NCBI GenBank assembly: GCA_903920435.1
Contig: CAIXMB010000052.1
Location: forward strand, 1 to 36,590
Length of the DNA: 36,590 nt
Direction: 5' to 3'
Origin: an uncultured Actinomycetes bacterium
Lineage (GTDB): Bacteria > Actinomycetota > Actinomycetes > Actinomycetales > Microbacteriaceae
Positions 17,693 to 26,180 of the stretch are shown here, piece after piece; position 1 is the stretch's first letter; the number at the start of each line of letters is the position of its first letter. Both the position numbers and the translations under genes were made by a program. A model generated the notes under the pieces. That model worked only from the letters and a program-made list of their open reading frames with translations. It did no database searches and was not told the DNA's origin.

Positions 17693-18434
17693 GCAGTCCG
17701 GCCTCGAAGCCCTCGTTCCAGGCCTCCCTGGTGCCGAGCCGGAACATGTCGCTCTCCGACGATCGCACGAGCGACCGGGCACCCGGCAGGTCGAGCTCGC
17801 CCACGACGTGGCCGAGGCCGCGCACGACCGCCACGGGCAGCCCGCCCGACTTGCCCTTCACGAGGTCAGCGGCCGAGGCGATCTCGTCGGCGGTCGCACC
17901 GATGGTCGCCTCGAGCTGACGCCCGTTGGCGTCGGTGGTGCCCCGCAGGTCGTCGAGCACACGGATGCCCGCAGCCCCGATCGCCGCATCGGCCTGCCCC
18001 TCGCGCCACGGCCGCCCCAGGGTGTCGGTGATCACGACGCCGACGGCCACACCGAAGCGCTCGCGCAGCGCGGACGCGAGCGCGCGGGCCGACGCATCCG
18101 GGTCTTCGGGCAGCAGGAGCACGTAGCCCTCGGGGGTGTTGCTCGAGTCGACGCCCGCGGCCGCGAGCACGAGGCCCAGCTTGTTCTCGACGATGCGGGT
18201 GGCGCCGCGGGTCGCGACGATGCGCACGGTCTCGGCCGTGATCGCGTCCTCCCGGTCGGCGGCCCGCACGAGCCTGCCCTCGGCCTTGCTCACGATCTTC
18301 GAGGTGACGGCGAGGATGTCGCCGTCTTCCAGCCCGGTGGTCGAGCCTGCCGAGACCGCATCGCCGATGATCGTCGCGAGGTCGTCGCCCGCGATGATCT
18401 CGGGGATGCCCTCCACCGCCCACACCGTGAGCAT
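17676..18434 (-). CDS. cofE: F420-0:gamma-glutamyl ligase, single-domain CofE
   Basis: Adds gamma-linked glutamates to F420-0 using GTP. The 252-aa protein covers only the ligase domain: [10 protein letters not shown] at the N-terminus, [18 protein letters not shown], and the catalytic region [21 protein letters not shown]. The mycobacterial homologue FbiB is about 450 aa because of an added nitroreductase-fold domain that reduces dehydro-F420-0; that domain is absent here. ATG 18434 overlaps the LLM oxidoreductase stop by one base (TGATG), so the genes are translationally coupled. Confidence 0.94.
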
Positions 18435-19435
18435 CAGCGCACCAGCTTCGGCAGCACGTCCCGGGAGAACACGTCGATCCACTCCTTCTGGTTGCGGCCG
18501 GCATTGTGCAGGTACACCCTGTCGAACCCGAGGTCGAGGAAGCGCTGGATGTGGGCGCGGTGCTCGTCGGGATCGTCGGAGACGAGCATCCGGCCCTCGA
18601 AATCCTCCGGGCGCACGAGTTTGGCCAGCTGCTCGAGCTCGAACGGCGAGCGCACGTCGCTCTTCGAAAAGCGCATGGCGCCGTTCGGCCACTCCGCGAG
18701 GGCGCTCGCCATCGCCTCCTCGGCGGTCGGCGCCCAGCTGAGGTTGAGGCGGAGCACACGGGTCTGCGTCTCGGGCTTGCGGCCCACCTCGCGCGCGCCC
18801 TCCGCGAACCGCTGCAGCAGCGGCGCGATCTTGTCGAGGGTGGCCCCCTCGGTGATGAGCCCGTCGACCGTGCGCCCTGCGCGCTTCGCGGCGACCGGGC
18901 CGGATGCCGCGACCAGGATGCTCGGGGCGTGCTCCGGCATCGTCCACAACCGGGTGGACTCGAGCCGGTAGTACTGGCCCTCGTGCCGCACGTCTTTGCC
19001 CGCGAGGCCCGAGGCGAACAGCTTCTTGATGATGTCGACGGCCTCGAACATGCGGTTGATGCGCTCGTGCGGCTCTGGCCAGTACTGCCCGACCACGTGC
19101 TCGCTCAGCGCCTCGCCGCTGCCGAGCCCCAGCCAGTGCCGCCCCGGGTACATCGCCGCGAGCGTCGCGCTCGCCTGCGCGACCATCGCCGGGTGCCAGC
19201 GGAACGTGGGGGTCGTGACGCCCGTGCCGAGATCACCGGTGGTGACCTGGCCGAGAGCACCGAGGACGTTCCACACGAAGGACGCCTCACCCTGGTGCGG
19301 CAGCCAGGGCTGGAAGTGGTCGGTGGCCATGACACCCTGGAAGCCCCGGGCCTCCGCGTAGCGGGTGAGGTCGATCGCCTCGTTCGGGCCGAAGCGCTCG
19401 AGCATGGCGGCATAGCCGATGTGCGGGAGCGTCAT
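18434..19435 (-). CDS. F420-dependent LLM oxidoreductase, G6PDH-like (TIGR03557-type)
   Basis: 333-aa luciferase-like F420 enzyme related to Fgd. Family features are ATDHFQPW near residue 38, [20 protein letters not shown], and the phosphate-binding [14 protein letters not shown]. Its place directly before cofE and cofC supports F420 as cofactor. Substrate is unknown. ATG 19435 has no ribosome binding site; GAGAAT lies exactly six bases upstream, a variant of the leaderless pattern. It now lies 30 bases from the island's left repeat and was probably once next to the lipoprotein gene at 24385. Confidence 0.85.
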
Positions 19436-19449
19436 GGGACTATTCTCGC

Positions 19450-19461
19450 GCCTCGCGAGGC
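19450..19461. repeat. 12-bp perfect palindrome beside left island repeat
   Basis: GCCTCGCGAGGC lies 4 bases outside the left attachment-type repeat (starts 19466). It may be a recombinase or regulator site, or chance in G+C-rich DNA. Confidence 0.3.
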
Positions 19462-19465
19462 ACGA

Positions 19466-19491
19466 CTACTCCGCTGAGCCCTTGCTCGCCC
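19466..19491. repeat. Left direct repeat of genomic island (att-like)
   Basis: 26 bases identical to 24385-24410 except for position 10 (T at 19475, G at 24394). The right copy is the 3' end of the lipoprotein gene, including its stop codon; this left copy is a displaced fragment of that gene end and encodes nothing here. Similarity stops sharply at both ends. The methyltransferase stop codon begins at the very next base, 19492. Confidence 0.8.
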
Positions 19492-20616
19492 TTAGGCGGC
19501 GCTCGTTCTATCCTGCGAGCCACATGAACATTCGCTCATCATGTCGCTGGGTCCAGCCTGCCGCGGTTCGAAGCCTAAGAAGCGCAGGATCACTTCGAGT
19601 CGCTGCAGAGTCAGATGCGGCGCTCCAGTCCCCGCGTAGCCGGATGCCAAGTGCGCGAACGACTCCAGCAGCAATTCGTGCAATCGGTCCGCAACGTTTC
19701 TGTCGAGAGCTCTTAGGGCAAATACGCAGTCGCTCAACAGCATCCGCCCGGACGCTATCTGAACCTTCCGCACATCGGGCTTGCCGACCCGAGGTAGCAG
19801 CGTAACGCGACCCTCGACTGCGCGAGGGTCCAAGCTGCCGCGTCGAACTGAATCCAAGTCCGCGCCGAGATTCCGCGTATGTACGAGAGTTTCGAGCTCT
19901 TGGTGCCGGTGAACCTGCACTCGGCCCCGAATGACGTCAACGCACACGCATTCGTTGGGCTGCAGCGGCGGCGCGGTCCTATTCGGCGGGAGCCGACCTG
20001 CTCCCGAATTTACACCGCCGATTCGGATTAACAGGGAACTGGCCGACACACCCGGAAACGTTCCTCGCGGAAGTGACCGAAGCACTTCCAGCGACCGTTG
20101 TCTTTCGATCCACTCCCAGAACTCTAGGTCGCGCTTGTTTGCGAAGGAGCCGGCCGGCAGTATTCCGATCATCTGTCGCGCTGGCTTCGCAACGTCCAAG
20201 GACAACGCCACGTACGCCGTCGCCGGGCTCAGCGTTCTTTGAACTCCACCGAGCTCCAACCTCACGCCCCCATTCCCCCGGAACGAGAAGGGAGGGTTGA
20301 AAACCACGGCTTCGCAACTGGTTTGGACCGCGCGCCACGCACGCGATTGAGACCTGGACTTCGGGTCCAAGGCATTGGCCTCGCTCACGATCCATTGAGG
20401 CTGTCTTTCGCGCAGTCGAGCGACTCGATGCCGATCAATATCGGCACCCACATACTCCAGGGCGCCGTTTCCGTGGACCTCCTGCACCGCGAGCAGCAAT
20501 GAACCTTCTCCGACGGTCGGGTCGAAAACACGACCTGAATCGACATCGATCAATTGTTCCGCAATCAAGCGAGCGATCCGGACCGGAGTGTCGACTTGGT
20601 CGAGTGCAGATCTCAC
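19492..20616 (-). CDS. N6-adenine DNA methyltransferase-like protein of the island
   Basis: 374 aa with a class I SAM-dependent methyltransferase core of the HsdM-like gamma type. Motif I is FDPTVGEG (D32 to G38), an acidic loop GADID follows at 57-61, and the catalytic motif IV is NPPF (107-110). The C-terminal third has no recognisable target-recognition domain. The start is GTG 20616, overlapping the upstream gene's stop (GTGA). It is the last gene of the island operon. No HsdS or restriction subunit is adjacent, so it may mark self DNA for the operon's own effector or act as a modifying effector; neither is shown by the sequence. Confidence 0.8.
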   Translation of the reverse strand: MRSALDQVDTPVRIARLIAEQLIDVDSGRVFDPTVGEGSLLLAVQEVHGNGALEYVGADIDRHRVARLRERQPQWIVSEANALDPKSRSQSRAWRAVQTSCEAVVFNPPFSFRGNGGVRLELGGVQRTLSPATAYVALSLDVAKPARQMIGILPAGSFANKRDLEFWEWIERQRSLEVLRSLPRGTFPGVSASSLLIRIGGVNSGAGRLPPNRTAPPLQPNECVCVDVIRGRVQVHRHQELETLVHTRNLGADLDSVRRGSLDPRAVEGRVTLLPRVGKPDVRKVQIASGRMLLSDCVFALRALDRNVADRLHELLLESFAHLASGYAGTGAPHLTLQRLEVILRFLGFEPRQAGPSDMMSECSCGSQDRTSAA

Positions 20617-21572
20617 GCAGCACTCACCGCCGTGTACGCACGCGACTGGATGAACTCCGACATGTAGTAGACACAGACGCGCGAAGCCCCTTGAGTCGGT
20701 CTGGCTGCCCTCTTGGGGTGATCATAAATGAGCTCAACGTCACCGTCGCAGGCGAGCGCAAAAAGGGCCGCAGCGACGGCGTGCGGTTTGGTGCCAATCG
20801 GCGCCACCTGAAGGCGCACACCGCCGAGCGCAGCGCGGATGTTACTAAGCGCCACGAAAGCCTCAAATGGGCAGTTTGCGCGCGCATGAACCACCTGCGA
20901 GTAAAGAAAGTTCTGTTCCAGTTCTCGCTGATTGCCCTCATAGCTATAGAAGGGAAACTCGACCTTGTAGCCGGGTACCCCGATTACGGGAAATGTTTGG
21001 CCAGGTGGCGGCTCTAGGCGCTGAATGATTCGTGTGAGGCGTGCGCCCTCGAATCCGAGCATCGCGATGAGCGGAACTGGTTCGTCAGTGATTGATGCGA
21101 CGGAGGCGAACCCAGGGATGCTCGAAATGCCCTCGGTGTAGTCGGAGAGAGAAAAATCGCGACCACCCAGCTGACGCACGTAGTCGCTCGGCTCGACGTA
21201 TACGAACCGAAATTTGGCGCCGACCGAGAGCGCCGCACGGAGGATTGGAGCCCAAGTTCGCAGTGCCAGTGACGTCATGTCAACAAAGATCGGCTCCGCC
21301 AGCGATGCCAGCCAGCCACTAATGGCTCCCTGATCATGGAGATAGATCCTTTCAAAGTCCCCTGCAGAGTGCTCGACCTCTATCCATTCGGCGTCCTCCT
21401 GCGTCACCACCTCGAAGGTGACTCGCCGGGCTTCTTGCCGCGCGCGCCAAACAGGACCGCCGACGGATCGCTCCTCCGGAACAGCGTGCCCACGGAGATA
21501 GCTGGCGCCTTCTGGGACTTCGAATCTCGCGACGGAGATCTCACGCGTGAACGAAGGGCCGAGGTCAACCAA
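20613..21572 (-). CDS. Island protein of unknown family
   Basis: 319 aa, not recognised. Blocks that look like conserved motifs are FVDMTSLALRTWAPILRAAL (a Rossmann-like strand-helix), LGFEGARLTRIIQRLEPP, GVPGYKVEFPFYSYEGN, ARANCPFEAF, and APIGTKPHAVAAALFAL followed by VELIYDHPKR. The GTKP turn before a helix recalls the GTK motif of CARF-like nucleotide-sensor domains, a weak resemblance only. No membrane helix or signal peptide is seen. The assigned start is TTG 21572, overlapping the ATPase stop by 8 bases; no ribosome binding site is visible, so reinitiation is likely. No ATG or GTG start was found in the first 20 codons. Confidence 0.75.
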   Translation of the reverse strand: MVDLGPSFTREISVARFEVPEGASYLRGHAVPEERSVGGPVWRARQEARRVTFEVVTQEDAEWIEVEHSAGDFERIYLHDQGAISGWLASLAEPIFVDMTSLALRTWAPILRAALSVGAKFRFVYVEPSDYVRQLGGRDFSLSDYTEGISSIPGFASVASITDEPVPLIAMLGFEGARLTRIIQRLEPPPGQTFPVIGVPGYKVEFPFYSYEGNQRELEQNFLYSQVVHARANCPFEAFVALSNIRAALGGVRLQVAPIGTKPHAVAAALFALACDGDVELIYDHPKRAARPTQGASRVCVYYMSEFIQSRAYTAVSAA

Positions 21573-23469
21573 CGCCGGGCCAATCGAACAACTGGCCAGG
21601 GGTGTATTGCAAGGTCGACCGCTTGTGTGATCTCAGGATGCGCTCGATCGTCCGTCCTGCAGTGCTGGCGTCAGCCAAGGAAGTCAGCGTCGCGGCCGAT
21701 AGCAAGAAGCGTCGTTTTCGACGATGACTGTATTCGAAATATGCAGCGAAGATCGGGTGGAGTTGGTAGTCGTATGCTCGCGTCTCACCGGACGCGGCGG
21801 CCCTCTTGTCGCCGGGGAATCGTACGATCCCCGAATGCATGATTGAGGCATTGAGAAGCCGCTCAAAACCCTCGTCCTCACCGTCTCGGTCGAGTCTGAA
21901 CTGATTCACCTCGGGAGTATGCCCCCAAGGCTCTCTGGCCATGACTCCCAGGATTCGGCCGAGTCCAAGCACGAGGAGCATGATCTGTCGACCTAGATCG
22001 TCCTGACCCTCCAGATCAAAGGCAAGCTTCTCGCCGACATTGGCCGCCGCTCGCGTCTGCACAGAAGCGTCAACGGGTACAGTCATGTCGTTTCCTGACT
22101 GCACATGCTGTGTCAACGCCGTACTCACAAGGTCCAGCAGATACCGGATGTTCCCGTCCGCGAGCAAGACCATAGTCGACCAGCCAGCGAAGTACTTCCT
22201 TACGGTTGGGCCGGTAGTTTCACGAATCGTAAACATTGCGGCATAGCCGTAATTGTTGACACGATTGGCCCAGGCCTTCGGCCTTTCCACCGCTTCTCTC
22301 AGGACTGCGAGTTCGCGCACGCTAGTGGACCGCGCCCAGTAACCGATCAGGAAGGAAGAAACGCGCCCCATCCGGTCGAACTCGCGAAGATCCTCTGCGG
22401 TCGCCCCTTGGTCCACAAGGTTCGAGCGTAAGTCCAGAAGGCGCGCGTCGACGCCCAACCTCGCTGCCTCTTCTTCGTCGCTTAGGTCTTCAAAGAGCGC
22501 AGTGATTGGAAGGGTCTTTTCGAACGCCGAGCTAAGCAACTGTAGGCGCTCGGTACACACACGCTCCGCAAATGCCGCGAAACCTTGTTCTTTGTGGTGC
22601 TCGACAATCTCGAGGAGGGCGTAATCTGCCACGGCGCTGATCGACTCGTGGGCATTCAGTGTGTGTCGATCTCGGATGCCGGTTGGTTTCACACCGATCT
22701 TTAGGGTGTAGGGCGCATCTCCTACATGCTTGAGCAGGCTGTTGACTACTCGCTGCTGATAGGTCTCGAGGTTCTCAAACTCGTCGAGGCAAATCGCGAG
22801 AAGTCGGCCGCTGAAGATTGGGTCCCCGCTCAACGCCTGGAGCACTGTTTCTAGGGGAGCGCCCAACATCGACAGTGTGATGCTCGGCAATGTGGTCGAC
22901 GTATTGTTTATGAGCGCTTGGAACTCAGCCAGATGATCTTCGACGCGGTTGCTCAGTTCGGCGTAGTCCTCGGTGGGGACTAGCCCCAAAGACAAGGCTG
23001 TCCGTCTGATGGCCGAGCCATCAACCGATGTCTCCTGGCCCATTTCAGTCTTGCGCCACGATACGAACCGCAATATGCGACCGACCAGCTGGAGGTTCAC
23101 CCAGTGCGAAAAAAGCCGCGTCCACTCGCTCTCGTCGAGCCTCGGTCCTTTGAACGCAGATAGCGCTAGAACACTCATCCTCCAATAGATTCCGAGAACT
23201 GGCCACCTGTCGATTGAATCGCCGTGTAGCGCCCGCTGCCCGTCGTATGCAACCATCCTCAAAGCAACCGTTTTGCCTGTGCCACGACCACCCACCAGGA
23301 AGGTCGGTCGGCGATCCGTTAGCGATTGCCAAAATATCGGTTCCTGAAAGACACGTGCAATCGTCGTGTCTGCGTACTCAGCCCGATACATCCCAAACAG
23401 ATTCGTGATCTCCGCGACCAACCTTTGCGGTGAAGCGCCGAGCGCTAGCGCGTCGTCAATGGGATCCAT
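21565..23469 (-). CDS. ORC/CDC6-like P-loop ATPase of the island
   Basis: 634-aa P-loop NTPase. Walker A GGRGTGKT (60-67), Walker B LLAICLDEFENL with D229/E230, and IGVKPTGIRDRH about 30 residues later in the sensor position resemble the ORC-CDC6-like STAND/AAA group associated with prokaryotic conflict systems. The C-terminal 350 residues are helical and probably contain a winged-helix or scaffold region, not assignable. ATG 23469 follows a strong AAGGAG with 5-base spacing and overlaps the preceding PRTase gene by 25 bases. It probably senses or relays a signal by ATP-driven assembly; this role is inferred. Confidence 0.82.
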   Translation of the reverse strand: MDPIDDALALGASPQRLVAEITNLFGMYRAEYADTTIARVFQEPIFWQSLTDRRPTFLVGGRGTGKTVALRMVAYDGQRALHGDSIDRWPVLGIYWRMSVLALSAFKGPRLDESEWTRLFSHWVNLQLVGRILRFVSWRKTEMGQETSVDGSAIRRTALSLGLVPTEDYAELSNRVEDHLAEFQALINNTSTTLPSITLSMLGAPLETVLQALSGDPIFSGRLLAICLDEFENLETYQQRVVNSLLKHVGDAPYTLKIGVKPTGIRDRHTLNAHESISAVADYALLEIVEHHKEQGFAAFAERVCTERLQLLSSAFEKTLPITALFEDLSDEEEAARLGVDARLLDLRSNLVDQGATAEDLREFDRMGRVSSFLIGYWARSTSVRELAVLREAVERPKAWANRVNNYGYAAMFTIRETTGPTVRKYFAGWSTMVLLADGNIRYLLDLVSTALTQHVQSGNDMTVPVDASVQTRAAANVGEKLAFDLEGQDDLGRQIMLLVLGLGRILGVMAREPWGHTPEVNQFRLDRDGEDEGFERLLNASIMHSGIVRFPGDKRAAASGETRAYDYQLHPIFAAYFEYSHRRKRRFLLSAATLTSLADASTAGRTIERILRSHKRSTLQYTPGQLFDWPGVG

Positions 23470-24308
23470 CCGTTCTCCTTCCAGGTGAACAGCGGCAACG
23501 TATTGTTCGGCGTCTTGTGCTCAAAAGAAACCGCGAGACCGGAGCCCCGATAGCCCCACACCATATGTTCGGGGATGCCCGCCACTCGCGAATATCTCTC
23601 AACAAGATCGACCGCGGCGGCCCGTATGGAAGGTGCGACCAAGTGTGTGTTAGGTGCTCGAAGCGACGAACTCGACGGCAGCACATTTCCAGCAGAAACA
23701 CCGAACGGCGAACTGCTTTCGATACGATCCTTGGCCATCCCACTGGCGACGGCCACGACGTAGTGGGCCGACGTTACCCCAAGTCGAGACATCTCATCAA
23801 GGAGCGAAGTCCCGCCAGCCCAGGGCTTCCGCACGGTTCGAAGGAACTGATCACCGGTTCCGATGAAATCGTCTACAAGTACAACAGGTGGTGGAGTGGT
23901 CAACCCGGTGAGTTCCGCGACAAGGTCATCAAGCTCGTAAATTCGCCCTTCGTCGACTCCGAAGTCATCGCGCATGATGCGGACAAACATGTGGCCCGAG
24001 TCGGTTGGGTTTATCGAGGGAAAGCTAAAGAGGGCGTGGTCTCGAAGCTCGGTCCACCGCTCTTCCGCGCTTTCAGCGCTTGTCTCAGCGAGTTGACGTG
24101 TCCCGAGTCGCCTGAAGGCTGCGTGAAAACACCTGTCAACGAGACGTGAATTCATGTAAACGAAGCCATCAAGGAGATGCCTTGCGATGCCCTTGTCCAC
24201 GTCGTCGAAGTTGCTAAGCCATGCACGTGGGTTGAGCGCGATCGGATGAGGCCAAAGGCTTATGTGAGCGAAGTAGTCGCGCACGGAGAGCACGTGTCCC
24301 GCATCCAT
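23445..24308 (-). CDS. Phosphoribosyltransferase-like protein of the island
   Basis: 287 aa. VVLVDDFIGTGDQ at 142-154 matches the type I phosphoribosyltransferase PRPP loop (hydrophobic strand, two acidic residues, then a TG-containing loop). The N-terminal 130 residues are helical and unassigned; APSIRAAAVDLVERYSRVAG and VWGYRGSGLAVSFEHKTPNNTLPLF lie in the C-terminal half. No purine/pyrimidine biosynthetic hood is obvious. From memory, such proteins (called PRTase-CE) pair with ORC-CDC6-like ATPases in predicted conflict systems. ATG 24308 follows AGGAGA. It is the first gene of the four-gene operon and probably the nucleotide- or ribosyl-modifying effector or signal producer. Confidence 0.8.
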   Translation of the reverse strand: MDAGHVLSVRDYFAHISLWPHPIALNPRAWLSNFDDVDKGIARHLLDGFVYMNSRLVDRCFHAAFRRLGTRQLAETSAESAEERWTELRDHALFSFPSINPTDSGHMFVRIMRDDFGVDEGRIYELDDLVAELTGLTTPPPVVLVDDFIGTGDQFLRTVRKPWAGGTSLLDEMSRLGVTSAHYVVAVASGMAKDRIESSSPFGVSAGNVLPSSSSLRAPNTHLVAPSIRAAAVDLVERYSRVAGIPEHMVWGYRGSGLAVSFEHKTPNNTLPLFTWKENGWIPLTTR

Positions 24309-24332
24309 AGCTCTCCTGACAACTTCGACTGG

Positions 24333-24338
24333 ATGCTA
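24333..24338 (-). promoter_or_regulatory. Possible -10 box of the island operon
   Basis: TAGCAT on the minus strand fits TANNNT and would give a leader of about 18-20 bases carrying the AGGAGA ribosome binding site. An alternative pair is TTGAGC (24363-24368) and TAGACA (24339-24344) with an 18-base spacer. Both are weak matches. Confidence 0.3.
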
Positions 24339-24359
24339 TGTCTACCATTTGAAATGAGT

Positions 24360-24378
24360 CCCGCTCAATCCCAGCGGG
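24360..24378 (-). terminator. Hairpin just inside the right island end
   Basis: CCCGCT (24360-24365) and AGCGGG (24373-24378) form a 6-bp stem with a 7-base loop, 6 bases after the lipoprotein stop codon on the minus strand; a short TTT follows some bases later. It could end lipoprotein transcription before the island operon, or be part of the recombination site. Confidence 0.4.
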
Positions 24379-24384
24379 GATGAG

Positions 24385-24410
24385 CTACTCCGCGGAGCCC
24401 TTGCTCGCCC
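24385..24410. repeat. Right direct repeat of genomic island (att-like)
   Basis: Copy that retains coding function: it is the 3' end of the lipoprotein gene, from its stop codon (24385-24387) through eight codons into the C-terminus. It matches 19466-19491 at 25 of 26 positions. Confidence 0.8.
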
Positions 24411-25071
24411 GCGCGTAGAGCACCGACGAGGTGTTCACCAGGAGCTTGTCGTCGGCGTCGTTCGTCGCCACGCCCTGCACGGCGAAGGCGAGGTTGCCCT
24501 GCAGCACGATGTACGTGCGGAAGCTGCGCGCCGCATCCGACGTACCCGCGACGGTGTCGATGAAGAACCCGCGGCCGTCCGGATCCTGGTCGGAGACGGC
24601 GACCGCGACGCCGATCGTGTCGCCGCCCTTCGTATCGGTGAACTGCGGGCAGGCCGCGACGGCGGTGTGGAAGTCGGTGAGGAAGGCCTTGGCCGCGGCA
24701 TCCGTGGAGAACAAGCGGGCCTGCACGGTGACTACCGCCGAGCCGGTGACGAGGGTCGGCAGCTCGTAGAACCGGTCGGTGCTGCTCGCGTCGCGACCGG
24801 AGAGCAGCAGCGGGCGGGCGGAGTTGCCGCACTTGGCGGGCGCGAAGACGTCGGCCGCGTCACTCACGTTCGCGAGGTAGTTGGCCACCGAGTCGGTCGC
24901 GAGGGTGTTCTTCTCCGCCGTGTAGCCGAGGGTGCCGAACGACGCCTGAGTGTCTTTGCCGAACAGGATCTCCTGCGCGTCGGCGTCGGTGAAGCTCGCC
25001 GTGGAGTCGGCGGCGCACCCGGAGAGGGCGAGCAGTGCGAGGGCGGCGACGAGCAGGGGCAGCTTCTTCAT
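24385..25071 (-). CDS. Putative lipoprotein, possibly PknH-like sensor domain
   Basis: 228 aa with a lipoprotein signal and lipobox LSGC (Cys19). The exported part has two further cysteines (in APAKCGNSARP and VAACPQFTDT) and resembles, weakly, the extracellular PknH-like sensor domains of actinobacterial lipoproteins. Ligand is unknown. Start ATG 25071 begins the signal; TACCCT lies seven bases upstream, fitting a leaderless start. A GTG at 25107 that overlaps the fgd stop is an alternative but would add 12 polar residues before the signal. Its 3' end serves as the island's integration site, and the C-terminus remains intact. Confidence 0.75.
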   Translation of the reverse strand: MKKLPLLVAALALLALSGCAADSTASFTDADAQEILFGKDTQASFGTLGYTAEKNTLATDSVANYLANVSDAADVFAPAKCGNSARPLLLSGRDASSTDRFYELPTLVTGSAVVTVQARLFSTDAAAKAFLTDFHTAVAACPQFTDTKGGDTIGVAVAVSDQDPDGRGFFIDTVAGTSDAARSFRTYIVLQGNLAFAVQGVATNDADDKLLVNTSSVLYARASKGSAE

Positions 25072-25103: not shown

Positions 25104-26108
25104 TCACAGGGCGCGGAGCCTCGGCGCGAGGTCGCGCTCGAAGAGCTCGAGGAAGCGGCGCTGGTCGTGCCCGGGAGCGTGGAATACGAGGTGGTTGAGT
25201 CCGGCATCCGTGTACTGCTTGATCTGCTCGACCACGGCGTCGGGGTCGTTGCCGACGATCCAGCGGCTCGCGATCTGCTCGATGGGCAGCGCGTCGGCGG
25301 CCTTCTCCATCTCGATCGGATCGGTGATGTCGTGCTTCTGCTCCTTGCTGAGCGCGAGCGGGGCCCAGAACCTGGTGTTCTCGAGGGCGGTGTCGGCATC
25401 GGTGTCGTAGGAGAGCTTGATCTCGATCATGCGGTCGATCTGGTCGAACTCGCGCTGCGCCTGCTCTGCACCCTCCTTGACCGCGGGGATGAGCTCCTTC
25501 GTGTAGAGGTCCATGCCCTTGCCCGACGTGCAGATGAACCCGTCGCCGGCGCGGCCGGCGTAGCGGGCGACGAACGGCCCGCCCGCGGCGATGTACACGG
25601 GGATCGGGGCATCCGGGCGGTCGTAGATGCTCGCGTCGACGGTCGTGTAGTACTCACCCTCGAAGTTCACGCGGTCGCCCGTCCACAGGGCGCGCATGAG
25701 GTCGACCGACTCGCGCAGCCGCGCGAAGCGCTCCTTGAACTCGGGCCACTCCTTGTTCCAGCCCGTGGCGATCTCGTTCAGGGCCTCACCGGTGCCGACA
25801 CCCAAGAACACGCGGCCCGGGTACAGGCACCCCATCGTCGCGAACGCCTGCGCGATGACGGCCGGGTTGTAGCGGAAGGTGGGCGTCATCACGGATGTCC
25901 CGATCGTGATCGTCTTCGTGCGCTCACCCACCGCGGCCATCCAGGTCAGCGAGAACGGCGCATGCCCGCCCTCGTGCCGCCACGGCTGGAAGTGGTCGGA
26001 GACTGTCACCGACTCCATGCCGTGACCCTCCGCCGCCACCGCGATCTCCACGAGCTCGCGCGGGTCGAACTGCTCTGCCGATGCCTTGAATCCGAGTTTG
26101 AGGGTCAC
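25104..26108 (-). CDS. fgd: F420-dependent glucose-6-phosphate dehydrogenase
   Basis: Oxidises glucose 6-phosphate to 6-phosphogluconolactone while reducing F420 to F420H2, the main supply of reduced F420 in actinobacteria. The 334-aa sequence matches recalled mycobacterial Fgd1 through nearly its whole length: [73 protein letters not shown] and [20 protein letters not shown]. The start is GTG 26108 (MTLKLGF...), with CACAAT six bases upstream and no ribosome binding site. It heads the minus-strand F420 cluster and would supply F420H2 to the LLM oxidoreductases in this window. Confidence 0.95.
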
Positions 26109-26180
26109 GTGTCTATTGTGCCCCTTCGGCTTGCTGCTCCCCTCCGCGCTAAATCTGTGGAGAGTAGCTTTCCACATTCG

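Follow-up and report, generated by a model that had tools for sequence, protein, structure and literature searches.

The pairing of a PRTase-CE protein, a family of phosphoribosyltransferase-like (PRTase) enzymes, with an ORC-CDC6-like ATPase has already been predicted computationally, and both families bear conflict-system names. Their Pfam accessions are consecutive (PF24390 and PF24389), from which we infer that they were described together. PRTase-CE reportedly goes back to Nicastro et al. 2023 (NAR 51:11479), who are said to have predicted that it targets nucleotides, and the classification of the CARF6 family is likewise said to come from Makarova et al. 2020. Two other enzymes of similar type have been linked to phage resistance. 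DS-32 is a phosphoribosyltransferase-like anti-phage protein (NCBIfam NF053875) that appears in the passages on DefensePredictor in PMC13092281, and the DprA-PRTase anti-phage system of P2-like phages contains a PRTase that is proposed, in the passages on it in PMC9122126, as an effector under a DNA-sensing partner. Here we describe a four-gene locus that combines a PRTase-CE and an ORC-CDC6-like ATPase with a CARF6 protein and an adenine methyltransferase. It lies in a contig of 36,590 nucleotides (CAIXMB010000052.1, assembly GCA_903920435.1, positions 1 to 36,590; "the window" from here on) of an uncultured actinomycete of the Microbacteriaceae.

An earlier note, made from the letters of the window alone, had proposed that four overlapping genes at this place form a candidate conflict system. 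The open reading frame (ORF) coordinates bear out the overlaps: four minus-strand ORFs occupy 19492-24308, and neighbours overlap by 25, 8 and 4 bp.

23445..24308, minus strand: gene 1, PRTase-CE, phosphoribosyltransferase-like, 287 aa, predicted effector (Pfam PF24390, E 1.6e-37)
21565..23469, minus strand: gene 2, ORC-CDC6-like AAA ATPase, 634 aa, predicted switch (Pfam PF24389, E 1.7e-116)
20613..21572, minus strand: gene 3, CARF6-family protein, 319 aa, predicted ligand sensor (nine PADLOC CARF6 models, best E 1.1e-80)
19492..20616, minus strand: gene 4, N6-adenine DNA methyltransferase, 374 aa (Pfam PF02384, N6_Mtase, E 1.9e-5)

The gene content and its order are conserved among relatives, the catalytic motifs are intact, the four genes are inherited jointly and their flanks match more defence models than a control does. 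We lean, with some reserve, towards reading the four genes as a single anti-phage (conflict) system that moves horizontally: self DNA would be marked by methylation, infection sensed by the ATPase and CARF6, and nucleotides attacked by the PRTase.

Recurrence of the Gene Set

A total of 99 related loci (L031-L129) were compared with the window, giving 100. They came from nine plasmid or phage records, one genome of the same family, the best 80 of 159 loci in GTDB genomes and nine viral-contig loci. The ATPase had led to 97 of the 99, and CARF6 to the other two, both plasmid records; co-occurrence is therefore properly tested by the three genes besides the ATPase. The hidden Markov models (HMMs) were built in this analysis, at first from relatives that are themselves counted, and ORFs were picked mechanically. 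In the HMM searches the PRTase adjoined the ATPase in all 100 loci and CARF6 was present in 97, the three misses being L112 (cut at the contig end), L115 (whose ATPase is shortened) and L116 (on a short contig, its ATPase split). A methyltransferase was likewise found in 97 of the 100, belonging to the window's family in 92 and to another one (N6_N4_Mtase / UPF0020) in five, where the gene stands at the PRTase end.

The order PRTase-ATPase-CARF6-methyltransferase was found in 76 of the 100 loci, and in 70 of 89 after dereplication at 90% ATPase identity. The methyltransferase came first in eight loci, and a ninth, L123, has a split PRTase; the remaining orders comprise two loci with a convergent methyltransferase, three with methyltransferase matches at both ends and L054, where this gene is split. 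No methyltransferase of the window's family was found in six loci, and a further three are incomplete. At L049:8110-11806 no methyltransferase was recognised near the PRTase-ATPase-CARF6 core, which makes this locus a natural test of the need for the gene. The same order recurs in loci from many phyla, beyond chance, and the conserved content upholds the suggestion that the genes work as a unit. For 86 loci the pairwise distances were correlated among the four proteins, with rho of 0.79-0.89 compared with at most 0.23 in 200 label shuffles; the proteins have been inherited jointly, and the correlation is a sign of co-travel, not proof of physical contact. As a separate observation, at L083:11904-14451 CARF6 and the methyltransferase are separated by two additional genes, of which the first has a zinc ribbon and a further ORC-CDC6-like match (E 9.9e-9).

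The PRTase, the ATPase and the Methyltransferase

The motifs seen by the earlier note are present in the window proteins and conserved in their homologues.

23847..23885, minus strand: PRPP-loop-like motif VVLVDDFIGTGDQ, gene 1 residues 142-154, conserved in 74 sequences
23269..23292, minus strand: Walker A GGRGTGKT, gene 2 residues 60-67; G60, G63, G65, K66 and T67 invariant in 49 sequences
22771..22785, minus strand: Walker B region DEFEN (within LDEFEN), gene 2 residues 229-233; D229, E230, E232 and N233 invariant in 49 sequences
20287..20298, minus strand: NPPF catalytic motif, gene 4 residues 107-110; N107, P108 and P109 invariant in 70 sequences

Both family assignments of the earlier note, PRTase and ORC/CDC6-like, held well above the cut-offs. 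Gene 1 matches PF24390 with 130.2 bits (cut-off 27 bits) over profile positions 2-253 of 253, and five PADLOC PRTase_III-A models with a best E of 5.9e-20. In the loop that resembles those binding phosphoribosyl pyrophosphate (PRPP), D147, G152 and Q154 are invariant among the 74 homologues and D146 is conserved in at least 90%; the motif had been rightly recognised, with its aspartates at D146/D147 and not at D147/D148 as numbered then. An AlphaFold2 model from the 74-row alignment has a mean predicted local distance difference test score (pLDDT) of 94.3. All but two of the 50 PDB matches listed for it are phosphoribosyltransferases or PRPP synthetases, the two being 7f06 and 1v9s, whose titles are uninformative. 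These weak but consistent fold matches support a PRTase fold for the modelled protein. Compared with the sequences of solved structures, genes 1 and 3 gave no match.

PRTase-CE is a reused module with quite different partners. In the same-genus genome G414 it stands at the C-terminal end of a protein of 1318 aa in which it is joined to AAA_16 (L137:6110-10063), in G665 it is fused to an OLD-like TOPRIM in a protein of 515 aa (L145:5402-6946), and its distant relatives, PRTase genes of DS32_1 type, directly adjoin a gene with a NADAR domain (L143:1222-2852 and L144:4545-6194). It is because of these partners that we take the PRTase for the putative effector. The 1318-aa protein gene is adjoined by a gene of 1461 aa without a Pfam match.

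Gene 2 matches PF24389 above cut-off with 390.7 bits over profile positions 1-570 of 571, and had chance-like matches only among the sequences of solved structures. The PF02384 match of gene 4 reaches 24.6 bits against a cut-off of 20.4; the same family is matched by 62 of the 70 gene 4 homologues, and the sequences of solved structures gave weak adenine-methyltransferase matches. The C-terminal motifs of this protein are, we assume, similar to those of type I specificity subunits. A target-recognition domain in this C-terminus was considered as a guess and set aside, no such Pfam domain being listed in the 70 homologues. No NCBIfam profile matched any of the four operon proteins above cut-off.

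The regular presence of the methyltransferase, replaced by another family in five loci, is the reason for which we see in it a putative self-marker. It would also suit an exclusion mechanism like that of restriction or BREX: self DNA would be known by its methylation, unmarked DNA would be blocked or modified by the ATPase complex, and the PRTase would carry out a base exchange on nucleic acid and not act on free nucleotides. BREX, in the passages on it in PMC12839542, likewise pairs methyltransferases with ORC-Cdc6-like ATPases, and the ATPase here belongs to the ORC/CDC6-like AAA proteins. However, neither a nuclease gene nor a BREX hallmark gene (e.g., pglZ or brxC) was recognised among the four operon genes in Pfam or PADLOC, and PRTase-CE modules stand without a methyltransferase in five other loci. 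We regard exclusion of this kind as quite improbable.

CARF6 and its Possible Ligand

The third protein had been called unknown, which does not stand: besides its nine PADLOC CARF6 matches it has a CARF-like predicted fold. It had no Pfam match at E 1, and the CARF6 models also match the six other third-gene proteins tested. The structure model (75-row alignment) has a mean pLDDT of 93.6. Among its 50 listed matches, 11 have a Foldseek probability of at least 0.95 and all of these are CARF proteins (Csm6, Can2, Cam1 and Csa3). Because the fold matches combine with those to PADLOC, we take a CARF (Rossmann-like) fold of the modelled protein as supported. One loop is conserved in particular.

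20781..20795, minus strand: CARF6 conserved GTKPH loop, gene 3 residues 260-264, with at least 90% conservation at every position among 75 sequences

It lies after a predicted strand, and many of the conserved CARF6 residues (D98, E127, P128, G173-E175, G260-H264, D284 and P286) are at or just after predicted strands. In Rossmann-like folds, ligand sites lie at or just after strands.

The locus makes it a testable question what a CARF protein senses in hosts most of which lack the known cyclic-oligonucleotide synthases searched for. The search covered 46 host genomes, hand-picked and mostly isolates: the window's own, G257 and those of 44 of the 80 genome loci. The type III-A Cas10 (Csm1) was over cut-off in 0 of 46, with two matches below it, and a type III-A CRISPR ligand therefore appears unlikely. 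SMODS synthases exceeded the cut-off in eight genomes and were not found above it in the other 38; in the genome of the window a SMODS match stays below the cut-off (E 2.6e-4), so that a ligand like those of CBASS (cyclic oligonucleotide-based antiphage signalling systems) may be made there. PF22335 (Cas10 palm) matched 15 of the 46 genomes, eight over cut-off, and an Escherichia coli control as well, which makes it unusable as a test for Cas10 (Cmr2); the control match could, as a guess, be a cross-match to GGDEF. A hidden type III-A CRISPR or CBASS locus was considered and, going by the Csm1 and SMODS counts in these 46 genomes, provisionally rejected.

With CARF6 in 97 of the 100 loci and synthases so scarce in the hosts, a ligand made within the operon is attractive, and no other nucleotide-making enzyme was recognised there. 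The PRTase might then be the signal maker, its phosphoribosyl-derived nucleotide being bound by CARF6, after which the ATPase and the methyltransferase would act on DNA. However, PRTase-CE pairs elsewhere with AAA_16, OLD-like TOPRIM or NADAR, as an effector would, five other PRTase-CE loci gave no CARF6 match, and we know of no PRTase that makes a messenger; we hold this explanation to be unlikely. A wider idea, for which we would claim only a little more, is self-contained immune signalling, in which a CARF receptor would answer a non-canonical nucleotide that a phosphoribosyltransferase makes or depletes, independently of Cas10 and of the CD-NTases (cGAS/DncV-like nucleotidyltransferases), with DNA methylation and the ORC-like ATPase deciding when it fires.

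Genomic Setting and Distribution

The earlier note had placed the genes on a mobile island. What we found instead is an operon-sized insertion of low GC content.

19452..24435, no strand assigned: inserted segment holding the operon, 4,984 bp, absent from same-genus G414 and of lower GC

The GC fraction is 0.56-0.62 in the operon compared with 0.65-0.76 around it. In G414 (L130) the site is empty, with the two flanks ca. 40 bp apart; in G408 about 1 kb separates them, and G401 lacks the nearer flank on the right, its two outer genes being 1.7 kb apart. Because same-genus genomes show an empty or differently filled site, an operon-sized segment has been gained here or lost in the others. PRTase-CE was above cut-off in three of the 27 same-genus genomes, the other two having it elsewhere and without ATPase, CARF6 or methyltransferase matches (the G398 copy is near a contig end). 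The five flanking genes tested encode two luciferase-like monooxygenases, one F420 ligase and two proteins without a Pfam match. The two monooxygenases are paralogues (36% identical) on either side of the operon, at 18434-19435 and 25104-26177 of the window, and the F420 ligase gene adjoins one of them. No tRNA was found in the window. A mobile island was rejected, as the insertion is operon-sized, the flanking genes are ordinary and there is no tRNA, although no whole-window integrase search was made. A housekeeping operon was also rejected, given the patchy distribution, the empty site in a same-genus genome and the plasmid copies.

As to the operon itself, gene 1 and gene 2 start with ATG, gene 3 with TTG and gene 4 with GTG; AGGAG stands four bases upstream of the gene 1 start, and a search for a sigma-70-like promoter found none.

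The loci belong to about nine phyla, Actinomycetota, Pseudomonadota, Bacteroidota, Planctomycetota, Acidobacteriota, Myxococcota, Nitrospirota, Bacillota and Desulfobacterota, assigned presumptively by organism name. Within the window's phylum the system is rare and patchy: among 396 genomes, 66 have an ATPase-family match, five of them above cut-off, and a full-length ATPase is present in two, the window's genome and G257. Among 72,556 plasmid records 150 contain relatives of the ATPase (129 from Klebsiella, 134 typed as conjugative). With CARF6 of the Moraxella copy as query 144 plasmid records were retrieved, 128 of them from Klebsiella, and the CARF6 of the window retrieved only 11. Nine plasmid or phage records were examined for operon content: PRTase-ATPase-CARF6 is present in each of the eight plasmid records among them, and the Acinetobacter "phage" record also carries chromosomal genes. 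The Klebsiella version was found in four of 5,426 E. coli genomes, always on plasmids and in strains named C600 or J53. A scan of viral contigs with the CARF6 query gave one locus, on a contig already in the set, and a near-identity search for the window operon among plasmids found nothing.

The flanks of 32 relatives were examined with two ORFs taken per side (126 proteins, after a size limit had removed a further 12, from three loci), and 138 of the 139 ORFs from 12 arbitrary regions of host genomes served as control. Counted as models and not as proteins, 62 PADLOC models were matched (E <= 1e-20) by the flank proteins compared with six in the control. Among the 25 of these 62 that were listed are Avs2, dGTPase, AbiE, PifA, PtuA, SoFic and PD-T4-6. 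Rough as it is, the contrast points towards a defence neighbourhood.

The plasmid records could also fit a maintenance (addiction) module of plasmids or other elements, compatible with defence, in which loss of the methyltransferase would let the ATPase and the PRTase kill the cell; a methyltransferase beside a predicted toxic effector resembles restriction-modification addiction. However, the genes also occur on many contigs not labelled as plasmids and in many phyla, the core of L049 has no recognisable methyltransferase, and the flanks match defence models. We think it very improbable that addiction is the explanation.

A Possible Mechanism

For the anti-phage system that we favour, we infer a role for each protein as follows. 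The methyltransferase would label the DNA of its host at a particular motif. Invading DNA, or a nucleotide made in the infection, would be sensed by the ORC-CDC6-like ATPase and CARF6, the two acting as an ATP-driven threshold switch. Once activated, PRTase-CE would be the effector that attacks the nucleotide pool, either by a PRPP-dependent transfer or by acting on the N-glycosidic bond (breakage or exchange). The phage would no longer replicate, and the host would probably cease to grow.

Several points weigh against this mechanism. The defence role and the reactions of the operon proteins are predictions from sequence, and the sensor role given to the ATPase and CARF6 is argued by analogy. 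The fold matches of gene 1 are weak (best E 1.3e-3, none at E <= 0.001, template modelling score of about 0.3), and so are the 11 CARF matches of gene 3 (E 0.005-0.044), where a solute-binding (sugar-binding) protein comes first by E-value, as the sole match with E <= 0.001 and with a probability of 0.85. The core of L049 means that self-marking may not be essential. Lastly, a single flank protein can match several of the PADLOC models counted. The two outcomes named beforehand as speaking against a conflict system, the lack of a PRTase fold and homologues in a housekeeping context, did not come out.

Comparison with Known Systems

The earlier note regarded the combination of four genes as experimentally undescribed. 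No paper on it was found in the open-licence literature of PubMed Central, subscription papers being outside this search, and to this extent the claim stood; as a claim of novelty it was too strong, the pair having been described computationally. We place the locus among systems predicted by computation, with no experimental description found in those open-licence papers. The gene set spans about nine phyla and plasmids, and it unites three themes of immunity usually met apart, self-marking by methylation, ligand sensing of CARF type and a predicted nucleotide-attacking enzyme.

DS-32 appears as a distant relative of the PRTase: 12 of the 74 gene 1 homologues match DS32_1 weakly (best E 8.2e-7), the window's own PRTase has no match to NF053875 (cut-off 250 bits), and both loci above cut-off have an adjoining NADAR gene and no ATPase, CARF6 or methyltransferase match. 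Similarly, DS41_1 matches 22 of the 49 ATPases, with a best E of 3.5e-5. Identity with DS-32 or DS-41 was rejected, the similarity being weak and DS-32 standing also in a different context. The DprA-PRTase system, likened here by description only, shares a proposed effector PRTase with a sensing partner, which there is DprA. With the CARF6 family, a PADLOC label, the likeness lies in the matches of gene 3; a difference is that none of the 46 host genomes searched has a type III-A Cas10 over cut-off. With the PRTase-CE / ORC-CDC6-like conflict systems it lies in genes 1 and 2, which match both Pfam families over nearly their full length.

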